Shown here piece after piece: positions 6,716 to 62,129 of a DNA stretch of 64,000 nucleotides (its first letter is position 1; the number at the start of each line of letters is the position of its first letter). The stretch lies in assembly GCF_016841685.1 (NCBI RefSeq), contig NZ_JAENYR010000008.1, forward strand, positions 1-64,000, written 5' to 3'. The translations under genes and the position numbers were made by a program. The notes under the pieces are model-generated. The model did no database searches and was not told where the DNA came from. It saw only the letters and a list, made by a program, of their open reading frames with translations. This DNA comes from Thiohalomonas denitrificans (GTDB taxonomy: Bacteria > Pseudomonadota > Gammaproteobacteria > Thiohalomonadales > Thiohalomonadaceae).

Positions 6716-6754
6716 ACCTCCGTGTCGAAAATCATCTCGATTCTATCGCTGTTC

Positions 6755-7104
6755 AGTGGCTAGTGGCTAGTAGCGAGTGGCTAGTGGCTAGTGACAAGTG
6801 ACAAGTGACAAGTGACAAGTGACAAGTGACAAGTGACAAGTGACTAGGCTATACGTCTCGTCTCTCGTCTCTCGTCTCTCGTCTCTCGTCTCTCGTCTCT
6901 CGTCTCTCGCCTCTCGCCTCTCGAATCTCGAATCTCGCCATTCGCTCATCCCTCGTCCCTAGCCACTCGCTACTCGCTACTCGCTACTCGCCACTCGCCA
7001 CTCGCTACTCGCTACTAGCCACTCGCTGCTAGCCACTCGCCACTCGCCACTCGCCACTCGCCACTCGCCACTCGCTACTCGCTACTAGCCACTCGCTACT
7101 GGTG
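6755..7104. repeat. Expanded heptanucleotide repeat array, 50 consecutive in-register 7-mers
   Basis: AGTGGCT x2, AGTAGCG, AGTGGCT x2, AGTGACA x7, AGTGACT, AGGCTAT, then ACGTCTC, GTCTCTC x7, GCCTCTC x2, GAATCTC x2, degenerate units, then ACTCGCT/ACTCGCC/ACTAGCC units to 7104. Confidence 0.97.
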
Positions 7105-23079: not shown

Positions 23080-24117
23080 ATGGATATTACGGAACTGCTT
23101 GCCTTTAGCGTCAAGAACGGCGCTTCCGACTTGCATCTCTCCGCTGGGCTCCCGCCGATGATCCGCGTTGACGGCGATATCCGCCGTATCAATGTACCGC
23201 CGATGGAACACAAGGCCGTGCACGGACTCGTGTACGATATCATGAACGATAAGCAGCGCAAGGATTTCGAGGAGTATCTCGAGACCGACTTCTCCTTTGA
23301 AATCAAAGGTCTTGCGCGCTTTCGCGTCAACGCCTTCAATCAGAACCGCGGCGCCGGCGCAGTGTTCCGCACCATTCCCTCCAAGATCCTGACGATGGAG
23401 CAACTGCACTGTCCCCCTATCTTCAAGGACATTACCGATACCCCGCGCGGTATGGTGCTGGTGACCGGACCCACCGGGTCGGGTAAATCGACCACGCTGG
23501 CGGCGATGGTCGATTACAAGAATGACAGTGATTACGGGCACATACTCACCGTCGAAGATCCCATCGAGTTTGTGCACGAGTCGAAAAAGTGCCTCATTAA
23601 CCAGCGCGAGGTGCACCGTGACACGCTGGGTTTCAATGAGGCCCTGCGCTCCGCACTGCGTGAAGATCCCGACACCATCCTGGTCGGTGAGATGCGTGAC
23701 CTGGAGACCATTCGCCTGGCACTCACCGCGGCCGAAACCGGCCACCTGGTGTTTGGTACTCTGCATACCAGTTCCGCGGCCAAGACCATTGACCGTATCA
23801 TCGACGTGTTTCCGGCGGCGGAAAAGGACATGGTCCGCGCCATGCTGTCCGAGTCCCTGCGGGCGGTCATCTCCCAGACCCTGCTAAAGAAGGCGGGCGG
23901 CGGCCGTATCGCGGCGCATGAGATCATGATCGGCACCCCGGCCATCCGTAACCTGATTCGCGAGGGCAAGGTGGCCCAGATGTATTCAGCCATCCAGACC
24001 GGACAGCAACTGGGCATGCAAACCCTCGATCAGAACCTTGCCGAACTGCTCAATAAAGGCATGATCAACAAGCAGGACGCCCGCGCCAAGGCCTCGAACA
24101 AGGACGCCTTCAAATAG
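23080..24117 (+). CDS. pilT: Type IV pilus retraction ATPase PilT
   Basis: MDITELLAFSVKNGASDLHLSAGLPPMIRVDGDIRR; GPTGSGKSTTLAAM; AIRNLIREGKVAQMYSAIQTG. Confidence 0.96.
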   Translation: MDITELLAFSVKNGASDLHLSAGLPPMIRVDGDIRRINVPPMEHKAVHGLVYDIMNDKQRKDFEEYLETDFSFEIKGLARFRVNAFNQNRGAGAVFRTIPSKILTMEQLHCPPIFKDITDTPRGMVLVTGPTGSGKSTTLAAMVDYKNDSDYGHILTVEDPIEFVHESKKCLINQREVHRDTLGFNEALRSALREDPDTILVGEMRDLETIRLALTAAETGHLVFGTLHTSSAAKTIDRIIDVFPAAEKDMVRAMLSESLRAVISQTLLKKAGGGRIAAHEIMIGTPAIRNLIREGKVAQMYSAIQTGQQLGMQTLDQNLAELLNKGMINKQDARAKASNKDAFK

Positions 24118-24218
24118 TTGCGAGTTGCGAGTGGCTAGTGGCGAGGAGACCTCTCCGCCGGCCGCCAGCCATCGTGACTCGCTACTCGCCACTAGCCACT
24201 AGCCACTAGCCACTACGA
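24116..24218. repeat. Heptamer palindromic element between pilT and pilU
   Basis: AGTTGCG x2 AGTGGCT AGTGGCG - centre - ACTCGCT ACTCGCC ACTAGCC x3 ACTACGA; begins in the pilT TAG. Confidence 0.93.
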
Positions 24219-46529: not shown

Positions 46530-46608
46530 AGTTGCAAGTAGGGCAAGGAGAGTGGAAGCCGCTCCACCTCCCTGGCCACTCGCTACTCGCTACTTGCTAC
46601 TCGCCACT
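46530..46608. repeat. Heptamer palindromic element between ahcY and metF
   Basis: Minus strand: immediately after ahcY TGA, AGTGGCG AGTAGCA AGTAGCG AGTAGCG AGTGGCC - centre - decayed arm CCCTACT TGCAACT. Confidence 0.85.
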
Positions 46609-48045
46609 TCAATACCGGTAGTGATCCGGTTTGTAGGGACCTTCGGTCGGCACGCCGATGTAGTCCGCCTGTACCTTACTGAGTTCGGTCAGGTGTACGC
46701 CGATCCGGTTCAGGTGCAGGCGAGCCACCTTTTCATCCAGGATCTTCGGTAGCACGTAGACCTTTTTCTCGTAGTGGTCGCCCCGGCCAAACAGCTCCAT
46801 TTGCGCCAGCACCTGATTGGTAAAGGAGGCGGACATGACGAAGCTCGGGTGACCCGTGGCGCAGCCGAGATTCACCAGACGTCCTTCAGCCAGGATGGTG
46901 ACCTTCTTGCCGTCCGGCTCGTCCGCGGTAGGGGGGAAGATGATGTGGTCGACCTGCGGCTTGATGTTCTCCCACTCGTACTTGCGCACTCCGGCAATGT
47001 CGATTTCCGAATCGAAATGGCCGATGTTGCAGACGATGGCCTCGTTTTTCATGGCCGCCATGTGATCGTGGGTGATCACGGCCTCGTTGCCGGTGGCGGT
47101 CACGAAGATGTCGCCGTGTGGCGCCGCTTCATCCATGGTCATCACCCGAAAACCTTCCATCGCCGCCTGCAGCGCACAGATGGGATCGATCTCCGTGACC
47201 CAAACCGTGGCCCCCAGCCCCCGGAAGGCCTGCGCACAGCCCTTGCCGACATCGCCGTAACCGAGCACCACGCAGGTCTTGCCGGCGATCATGACGTCGG
47301 TGGCGCGCTTGATGCCGTCCATCACCGACTCGCGGCAGCCGTAAAGGTTGTCGAACTTGGATTTGGTGACCGAGTCGTTGACGTTCATGGCCGGGAACAG
47401 CAGGCTGCCGTCCTTTTCCATGTGATAGAGCCGGTGCACTCCGGTGGTGGTCTCCTCGGTGACGCCGCGAATGCCGGCGGCCATCTCGGTCCATTTGTTG
47501 GTGCTGTTGGCAAAGTGGCGCTTGAGGACGCCCAGAACGGCGGTGTACTCCTCGTTGTCACCGGCCTGGGGCTCGGGCACCGCGCCCGCCTTTTCGAACT
47601 CGACGCCCTTGTGCAGCAGCAGGGTGGCATCGCCGCCGTCATCGAGGATCATGTTGGGTCCTTTGCCGTCGGGCCAGGCAAGCGCCTGTTCCGTGCACCA
47701 CCAGTACTCCTCGATGGTTTCACCTTTCCAGGCGTAGACAGGGATGCCCTCGGCAGCGATAGCGGCAGCGGCGTGATCCTGGGTAGAGAAAATGTTGCAG
47801 GAGGCCCAGCGGACCTCGGCTCCCAACTCCACCAGGGTCTCGATGAGCACCGCCGTCTGGATGGTCATGTGCAGGGATCCGGTGACGCGTGCGCCCTTGA
47901 GCGGCTTGGCGGCACCGTACTCCTCGCGCAGCGCCATCAGACCCGGCATCTCGGTCTCGGCAATGGCGATCTCCTTGCGGCCCCAATCGGCCAGGGAGAT
48001 ATCGGCAACTCTATAATCCGAGAACTCGGAAGGAACAGCGTTCAT
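46609..48045 (-). CDS. ahcY: S-adenosylhomocysteinase
   Basis: [55 protein letters not shown] terminus. Confidence 0.97.
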
Positions 48046-48065
48046 GAAGCAAGCTCCATCGATTC

Positions 48066-48140
48066 GCTGAGCGCCGTTGTTCCAGGAAAACCGCGAAACC
48101 CTGAGCCTGACGGGAAACCGCTGCAGCGCTCCTCAGGGTT
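48066..48140 (-). promoter_or_regulatory. SAH riboswitch upstream of ahcY
   Basis: Minus strand AACCCTGAGGAGCGCTGCAGCGGTTTCCCGTCAGGCTCAGGGTT...AACGGCGCTCAGC; P1 AACCCTGAG/CTCAGGGTT, pseudoknot GAGCGC with GCGCTC. Confidence 0.9.
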
Positions 48141-48149
48141 ACGGTGAAT

Positions 48150-48270
48150 AGTTGCGAGTTGCGAGTTGCGAGTGGCTAGCTGCTAGCCAGGAGAGGCAGT
48201 TCCACGCCCAGGTGGCAGTCGCCGCCTCGCCACTAGCCACTAGCCACTAGCTACTAGCTACTAGCTACTG
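48150..48270. repeat. Heptamer palindromic element between metK and the SAH riboswitch
   Basis: AGTTGCG x3 AGTGGCT AGCTGCT - centre - ACTAGCC x2 ACTAGCT x3 ACTGA. Confidence 0.93.
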
Positions 48271-52925: not shown

Positions 52926-53950
<1,025 letters not shown>

Positions 53951-53951
<1 letters not shown>

Positions 53952-54056
53952 GTGGCTAGTAGCTAGTGGCTAGTGGCTAGTAGCGAGGATGTGCCGGCGG
54001 CATCGCCGCCGGCACTCCTTTCCTGGCAACTCGTCACTCGCAACTAGCAACTGAAC
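53951..54056. repeat. Heptamer palindromic element between gap and pgk
   Basis: AGTGGCT AGTAGCT AGTGGCT AGTGGCT AGTAGCG - GTGCCGGCGG CATCG CCGCCGGCAC - ACTCGTC ACTCGCA ACTAGCA ACTG; starts on the A of the gap TGA. Confidence 0.95.
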
Positions 54057-60200: not shown

Positions 60201-61619
60201 ATGGCCAAGAGCTACAGCGCGGGCGTAAAAGAGTACCGCGAAACATACTGGATGCCCGAATACACGCCGAAGGACACTGATTTTCTGGCCTGCTTCAAAG
60301 TGGTGCCCCAGGCGGGCGTGCCCCGTGAAGAGGCGGCTGCGGCGGTCGCAGCCGAGTCCTCCACCGGCACCTGGACCACGGTCTGGACCGATTTGCTGAC
60401 CGACCTGGACTACTACAAGGGCCGTGCCTACGCCATCGAAGATGTGCCCGGCGACGACGAAGCCTTCTACGCCTTCATCGCCTACCCGCTGGATCTGTTC
60501 GAAGAGGGCTCGGTGGTCAACGTTCTGACCTCTCTGGTGGGCAACGTGTTCGGCTTCAAGGCGGTCCGCTCCCTTCGCCTGGAGGATATTCGCGTGCCGG
60601 TCGCCTTCGTGGTCACCTGTGGTGGTCCCCCCCACGGTATTCAGGTCGAGCGCGACAAGATGAACAAGTACGGTCGTCCGATGCTCGGCTGCACCATCAA
60701 GCCGAAGCTGGGGCTCTCGGCGAAGAATTATGGCCGTGCCTGTTACGAAGGTCTGCGCGGTGGCCTCGATTTCACCAAGGATGACGAGAACGTCAACTCG
60801 CAGCCGTTCATGCGCTGGCGCCAGCGTTTCGAATTCGTTGCCGAAGCGATTCACAAGGCCGAGGCAGAAACGGGTGAGCGCAAGGGCCACTACCTGAACG
60901 TCACCGCGCCGACCCCGGAAGAGATGTACAAGCGCGCCGAGTTTGCCAAGGAACTGGGCATGCCGATCATCATGCACGACTACCTGACCGGCGGCTTCAC
61001 CGCCAACACAGGTCTGGCCAACTGGTGTCGCGACAACGGTATCCTGCTGCACATCCACCGTGCCATGCACGCCGTGCTCGATCGCAACCCGCGTCACGGT
61101 ATTCACTTCCGTGTGCTGACCAAGATGCTGCGCCTCTCCGGCGGAGATCACCTGCACTCCGGTACCGTGGTCGGCAAGCTCGAGGGCGACCGCGAGGCCA
61201 CCCTGGGATGGATAGACCTGATGCGCGACTCCTATATCAAGGAAGACCGCAGCCGCGGTCTCTTCTTCGACCAGGATTGGGCGCACATGCCGGGTCTGCT
61301 TCCGGTCGCCTCCGGCGGTATTCATGTCTGGCATATGCCGGCGCTGGTCGCCATCTTCGGCGACGACTCCGTGCTGCAGTTTGGTGGCGGCACATTGGGC
61401 CACCCGTGGGGCAATGCCGCCGGCGCCGCCGCCAATCGCGTCGCCGTCGAAGCCTGCGTACAGGCCCGCAATGAAGGTCGAGAACTGGAGAAGGAGGGAA
61501 AGGAGATCCTCACCGCCGCCGCCAAGCACAGCCCCGAATTGAACATGGCGATGGAGACCTGGAAGGAGATCAAGTTCGAGTTCGACACCGTCGACAAAAT
61601 CGACGCCGCCCACCGGTAA
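60201..61619 (+). CDS. cbbL: RuBisCO large subunit, form I (IA-like)
   Basis: [82 protein letters not shown]. Confidence 0.97.
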
Positions 61620-61624
61620 AGAAG

Positions 61625-61701
61625 GAGGTACGAGATACGAGGGGCGAGCTACGAGGAGGCTGGTATTCGGCCAGACCTTCGTATCTCGAATCTCGTATCT
61701 G
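61625..61701. repeat. Heptamer palindromic element between cbbL and cbbS (GAGATAC subtype)
   Basis: GAGGTAC GAGATAC GAGGGGC GAGCTAC GAGG - centre - GTATCTC GAATCTC GTATCT. Confidence 0.85.
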
Positions 61702-61772: not shown

Positions 61773-62129
61773 ATGAGCGAGATGCAGGATTACACCTCGA
61801 GCCTGAGCGACCCGTCGAGTCGCAAGTTCGAGACTTTCTCGTACCTGCCGGAAATGACCCCCGAACAGGTCCGCAAACAGGTGGAATACATCGTCAGTCA
61901 AGGCTGGAACCCGGCTATCGAACACACCGAACCCGAGAACGCCTTCGAACACTACTGGTACATGTGGAAACTGCCGCTGTTCGGCGAAACCGACGTCGAT
62001 ACCATCCTGGCCGAGGCCGAGGCGTGCCATAAGGCCCATCCGAACAACCACGTGCGTCTGGTAGGTTTCGACAACTTCGCCCAGTCCAAGGGCACGGAGA
62101 TGGTTATCTATCGCGGAATCGCCGTTTAA
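61773..62129 (+). CDS. cbbS: RuBisCO small subunit
   Basis: [54 protein letters not shown]. Confidence 0.97.

Follow-up and report, generated by a model that had tools for sequence, protein, structure and literature searches.

Near the end of the window, by which we mean the whole 64,000-nucleotide stretch of the Thiohalomonas denitrificans genome analysed here, the RuBisCO genes cbbL (gene call at 60201-61619, plus strand) and cbbS (61773-62129, plus strand) are separated by a spacer that carries a palindromic array of heptamers at 61625-61701. This element starts five bases past the cbbL stop codon TAA (61617-61619, plus strand), which is its anchor, and ends 71 bases ahead of cbbS. Its 5' arm (61625-61652, plus strand) consists of four NAGNNNC heptamers, GAGGTAC, GAGATAC, GAGGGGC and GAGCTAC. 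It is followed by a centre (61653-61680, plus strand) comprising the inner border GAGGAGG, a loop with a small CTGG...CCAG stem, and ACCTTC, and by a 3' arm (61681-61701, minus strand) that reads CAGATAC, GAGATTC and GAGATAC on its own strand and closes with an outer CAG/CTG border. Coordinates, sequences and the forward-centre-inverted layout agree with those given in an earlier note on this DNA. The forward heptamers lie opposite the inverted ones in a strong hairpin: the inverted arms 61633-61654 and 61679-61700 are 82% complementary, and the spacer folds at -57.2 kcal/mol compared with -40.2 kcal/mol for dinucleotide shuffles (z -4.4). At 61622-61629, right past the cbbL stop, a perfect Shine-Dalgarno-like AAGGAGGT runs on into the first heptamer; no start codon is evident behind it. 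A search of Rfam returned no match above the gathering score at 61625-61701, its sole find being an SAH riboswitch at 48062-48140, and the genome holds no full-length second copy of the element, matches occurring at the heptamer level only.

A family of stop-anchored heptamer palindromes

The cbbL-cbbS copy is one of six elements, A to F, in the window, where runs of at least three NAGNNNC units number 15 against 0.65 expected, and runs of at least four number 13 against none in 20 Markov (shuffled) sequences. Element A (6754-7101), a large mixed array between the divergent radC and coaBC, combines the AGTGGCT/AGTGACA with the GAGAGAC/GAGATTC subtype, and its array at 6860-6936 indeed contains, on the minus strand, the GAGATTC and GAGAGAC units that the earlier note had seen there, together with GAGAGGC. 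Element B (24115-24215) begins inside the pilT stop codon, ahead of pilU; C (46575-46609) lies 3' of ahcY (minus strand), ahead of metF; D (48149-48270) begins 2 nt past the metK stop and adjoins the SAH riboswitch of ahcY (minus strand); E (53950-54053) overlaps the gap stop codon, ahead of pgk; and F is the cbbL-cbbS element itself. The riboswitch (48062-48140, minus strand) is located upstream of ahcY, with element D between it and metK, and metK, ahcY and metF look like one operon.

Genome-wide, the pattern NAGTNGCx3 occurs 235 times, compared with 0 for a reversed control; among 274 sampled genomes of the class it was present in 15, and abundant in few lineages only. GAGATNC doublets likewise recur elsewhere in T. 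denitrificans, for instance in a clean hairpin at a two-gene junction on contig C131, and a GAGATTC-type hairpin lies between rpsN and rpsH in a ribosomal protein operon (L222 1466-1548, on C69 of G000; L287). The proposal that the GAGATAC and AGTGGCT subtypes form one family is borne out by their common position, polarity and layout, by the recurrence of GAGATAC hairpins (C131, rpsN-rpsH and others), and by a sister species that carries the AGTGGCT subtype in its cbbL-cbbS slot. Read inwards, the members of the family share an outer CAG heptamer, a variable number n of degenerate NAGNNNC heptamers and an inner NAGG border, which is A-rich in some lineages; beyond a loop, the mirror image of the whole follows. 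Two-armed elements are about 65-350 nt long, or longer, and vary in the number and sequence of their heptamers; in the three groups examined, C occupies position 1 of the outermost unit in 30-46% of arms and of none inside the array. The main units are NAGTNGC and GAGATNC, a G run being confined to the minor GAGGGGC units. As to the claim that AG at positions 2-3 and C at position 7 are invariant, it holds within the T. denitrificans genome, in part as a product of the search pattern, but elsewhere position 7 can be T. Contigs begin or end near heptamer arrays in several places (L161 on C52, L155 on C17, L160 on C36 and L165 on C110); the arrays probably break assembly, and array lengths may for that reason be underestimated. 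Furthermore, at L163 4370-4906 (C126), and also at L179 near 1797, a heptamer element has a second repeat, CCTGTCCGAGAA..., within or adjoining it, which gives the impression of a separate dispersed repeat lodged in the loop.

The position of the elements relative to genes was scored with a simple home-made gene caller over about 0.55 Mb of the T. denitrificans genome, 0.5 Mb of its sister G001 and shorter regions around hits in five further genomes, the regions outside the first two genomes having mostly been picked for their hits. Between co-directional genes, the upstream stop lies no more than 15 nt from the start of 33 of 43 elements, which often begin inside the stop codon; uniform placement gives a mean of 15.0 and attained the observed value in 0 of 20,000 simulations. 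Where the slack was 60 nt or more, 20 of 29 elements lie near the stop and none near the start (within 15 nt); in long spacers 6 of 13 lie near the stop, where 0.55 would be expected (P 2e-5). Where genes converge, the majority of elements are likewise in contact with a stop. Polarity is uniform as well, the AG-bearing unit occupying the 5' arm in 34 of 34 scorable hairpins. The exceptions to anchoring include element A, which lies between two starts, and a few elements that start 317-783 nt from a stop. Anchoring even in long spacers is the only strong indication of a function, or of a mode of origin linked to the ends of genes.

Persistence and replacement in a sister species

The sister G001, of the same genus (cbbL DNA identity 92.7%), has an element at all six syntenic places. 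Elements B to E align closely between the two species, and their differences are mainly indels of 7 nt or multiples thereof. The cbbL-cbbS copy alone among the six has been replaced as a whole: the cbbL stop is TAA in T. denitrificans versus TGA in G001, and the spacers, at about 48% identity, are essentially unalignable from the cbbL stop to just ahead of the cbbS start. The G001 slot holds an AGTGGCT-type heptamer hairpin at the same position and with the same layout. The GAGATTC-type hairpin between rpsN and rpsH, for its part, is nearly identical in both sisters and absent in two other family members, whose spacers there are far shorter, so that heptamer subtypes can be stable, while elements appear to be gained. 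Of the sites compared, cbbL-cbbS is exceptional in its subtype replacement.

Probable origin and possible effect of the cbbL-cbbS element

We consider it probable, at roughly 0.6, that the element between cbbL and cbbS belongs to a dispersed family of non-coding palindromic repeats which are stop-anchored and REP-like, evolve by 7-nt slippage and exert a modest effect. The 7-nt steps would arise by replication slippage, while the similarity of the two arms would be upheld at the DNA level by family-wide sequence, perhaps with template switching between the arms. The element would be co-transcribed passively, as a hairpin within the cbbLS mRNA, and its likeliest effect would be modest and REP-like, either as a barrier to 3' exonucleases or as a structure acting on ribosomes at the cbbL stop. 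A general, gene-independent effect of the elements on mRNA is possible.

A functionless by-product is a serious contender, to which we give clearly less than even odds; here, heptamer slippage and template switching between the arms build palindromes wherever these are tolerated, the space after a stop codon being the most tolerant. Among the long simple repeats of most genomes, heptamers are the most frequent kind, an abundance attributed to polymerase slippage (Mrazek 2007, as cited in PMC4679880), and template switching is able to create and maintain hairpins (PMC8794818). A hairpin selected in mRNA is expected to contain sense-strand G-U pairs in excess of A-C mismatches. No such bias appeared in the genome elements (G-U 19 versus A-C 25) or in the cbbL-cbbS heptamer hairpins (14 versus 23), a set that slightly overlaps the former. 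Own arms, moreover, pair no better than foreign arms (mean rank 0.49), the own mate being the best partner in only 3 of 19 cases, so that pairing comes mainly from the shared unit sequence. The lack of both a G-U excess and arm coevolution speaks against RNA-level selection on the hairpin and so weakens the functional half of our explanation; together with the 7-nt indels, the missing G-U bias and the missing base-by-base matching of arms would place upkeep at the DNA level. That the cbbL-cbbS copy can be swapped or missing also suits a by-product. Two observations, however, sit badly with it: long spacers offer much tolerant space and yet starts fall at the stop (6/13 against 0.55), and neither the fixed polarity nor the shared inner and outer borders are expected from plain slippage.

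Mobility is a weaker candidate. The element would then be a mobile palindrome of the REP or MITE type that a RAYT or similar transposase moves, with a preference for gene 3' ends, and its discrete borders fit, as does the gain suggested by an rpsN-rpsH element shared by the sisters and missing from two family members with compact spacers. REP sequences flank a linked Y1 (RAYT) transposase gene, and Y1 transposase genes were found in 8 of 8 heptamer-bearing genomes examined. Nevertheless, heptamer runs of at least three units lay within about 1.5 kb of 0 of the 30 Y1-transposase loci in these eight genomes, and RAYT-driven mobility was rejected on that count; all six elements of the window have syntenic counterparts in the sister, and the cbbL-cbbS element has no full-length second copy in the genome, all of which makes mobility improbable in our eyes. 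The repeats at the three Y1 transposase loci inspected for them (L232, L233, L256) share GGGGTCAGAGTAA and belong to a family different from the heptamers.

The cbbL-cbbS spacers of other autotrophs bear on a third proposal, a dedicated regulator of the cbbL:cbbS ratio. We surveyed 104 distinct spacers, 94 of them of at least 30 nt, and scored a hairpin as significant when it was better than all 60 shuffles. Such a hairpin was present in 46 of the 94, in most cases beginning no more than about 12 nt from the stop, and 7 was the best arm period in 14 or 15 of these 46. Imhoffiella purpurea and Thiocapsa marina, both culturable, are among the carriers of heptamer hairpins in this spacer. The heptamer units differ from spacer to spacer (AAGTTGC, CAGCTNC, CAGGATT, TAGGAGC, CAGCTGT, GAGGAGT and others), and all period-7 hairpins, judged by eye, have the purine-rich, AG-bearing unit on the 5' arm. 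Most hairpin-bearing spacers have no heptamers, and about half of those surveyed have no significant hairpin, and some spacers are just 12-30 nt long; apart from the heptameric ones, the spacers contain unrelated palindromes, for instance GTAGGGTGGGTTA or ATCCCGGA repeats, or no hairpin. The spacers L046, L050, L115 and L131 have non-heptamer palindromes starting with GTAGGGTGGGTTA or similar, and palindromes of this type are REP-like families of other lineages. In L019, a second GC-rich hairpin, GGGAGCGGCGGACGCCGCCGCTCCC, is nested between the heptamer arms. Heptamer hairpins were counted in 10 of 79 spacers versus 10 in 473 kb of flanks, with spacer length uncontrolled, so that their enrichment in cbbL-cbbS spacers is only suggestive. 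The portions of the literature consulted on cbbL/cbbS intergenic stem-loops describe no heptamer element in this spacer.

The frequency of hairpins close to the cbbL stop, a good part of them heptameric, and the possible enrichment over flanks speak for a ratio regulator, in line with the regulatory effect that the earlier note had thought plausible between subunits needed at 1:1 stoichiometry. A RuBisCO-specific or stoichiometric role finds no support in the comparison: elements of the same kind follow pilT, metK, ahcY, gap, rpsN and other genes, half of the autotroph spacers have no significant hairpin and most hairpins no heptamers, the mismatches show no bias to sense-strand G-U pairs, and the element has been replaced between sister species. 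A dedicated regulator is, in our judgement, quite unlikely. As for an intrinsic terminator or attenuator lowering cbbS transcription, which the strong hairpin directly past the stop codon might bring to mind, we hold it to be very unlikely indeed, as the GC stem lacks a T-tract (the sequence following 61701 is ACTCCGAACTG, with no immediate T-run), no sense-strand terminator was found at the element, and elements of this kind also occur within the rpsN-rpsH operon and at the metK-ahcY junction. The cbbL-cbbS element is real and ordinary in its genome, a copy of a repeat family and no RuBisCO-specific switch.

Relation to known repeats and significance

The closest known kind is the GGGAATC/GGGNATC heptamer repeat of Xanthomonas, of which the variant without G-tracts is new. 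The GGGNATC repeats of Xanthomonas and Nostoc (Rehm et al. 2015, PMC4692102) have a 7-nt unit and are mostly intergenic, between aligned ORFs; they lie near or overlap stop codons on the sense strand, form convergent inverted pairs (70 and 75 cases), have no link to mobile elements, and count pilU among their associated genes. In their study, Rehm et al. stressed G-quadruplexes and reported the repeats in no other gammaproteobacteria. The elements described here share the mainly intergenic 7-nt tandem unit, the stop-proximal position (33/43 within 15 nt), the sense-strand unit and convergent inverted pairs (polarity 34/34), and, through element B, the link to pilU. In contrast, they occur in different organisms, two sister species can carry different units at a single site, and units such as AGTGGCT and GAGATAC mostly lack a GGG tract; G-quadruplexes therefore cannot be the common factor.

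REP sequences of the E. coli type, defined as having 14-40 nt and a shared consensus (PMC12306157), are likewise extragenic, palindromic and dispersed in many copies, and a subset within 15 nt of a stop codon was reported to stall ribosomes there (PMC12306157). The heptamer elements are longer, consist of tandem arrays variable in copy number and sequence, and, unlike REP, flank no Y1 (RAYT) transposase gene (0/30 loci). The TAACTGA repeats of marine Beggiatoaceae (MacGregor 2015, PMC4679880), found in sulfur-oxidising gammaproteobacteria and others, are also intergenic heptamers; however, they are direct repeats of a single fixed unit, with one indirect repeat only, just upstream of start codons, whereas our elements have a different unit and, given slack, lie within 15 nt of a start in 0 of 29 cases. 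Degenerate heptanucleotide repeats of varying copy number also pair into the P6b hairpin of the Nostoc tRNA-Leu intron (Costa 2002, as cited in PMC3488679), there inside a tRNA intron of cyanobacteria and here between protein genes.

A bolder reading, tentative and in our estimate rather unlikely, is that of a general class: unrelated bacteria would have acquired such palindromes again and again at identical gene junctions, cbbL-cbbS and perhaps pilT-pilU, each anchored to a stop codon and armed with heptamers whose sequence varies. AG on the 5' arm and the inner and outer borders would be common to the class. What is conserved would then be layout, position and period, and not sequence, through an undescribed DNA-copying process or an equally undescribed reader protein.

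Inverted heptamer arrays anchored at stops, known from Xanthomonas as G-quadruplex repeats, thus occur in the same anatomy with units unable to form quadruplexes, and what unites them must lie elsewhere: in the period of 7, the polarity, the palindrome or the position. The interest of the cbbL-cbbS element lies in its replacement between sister species and in its anchoring at the stop. With the same layout and a different heptamer in two sisters, the cbbL-cbbS slot provides a clean system for studying the birth, replacement and retention of gene-end repeats, and it also allows their effect on expression in carbon-fixing operons to be asked.
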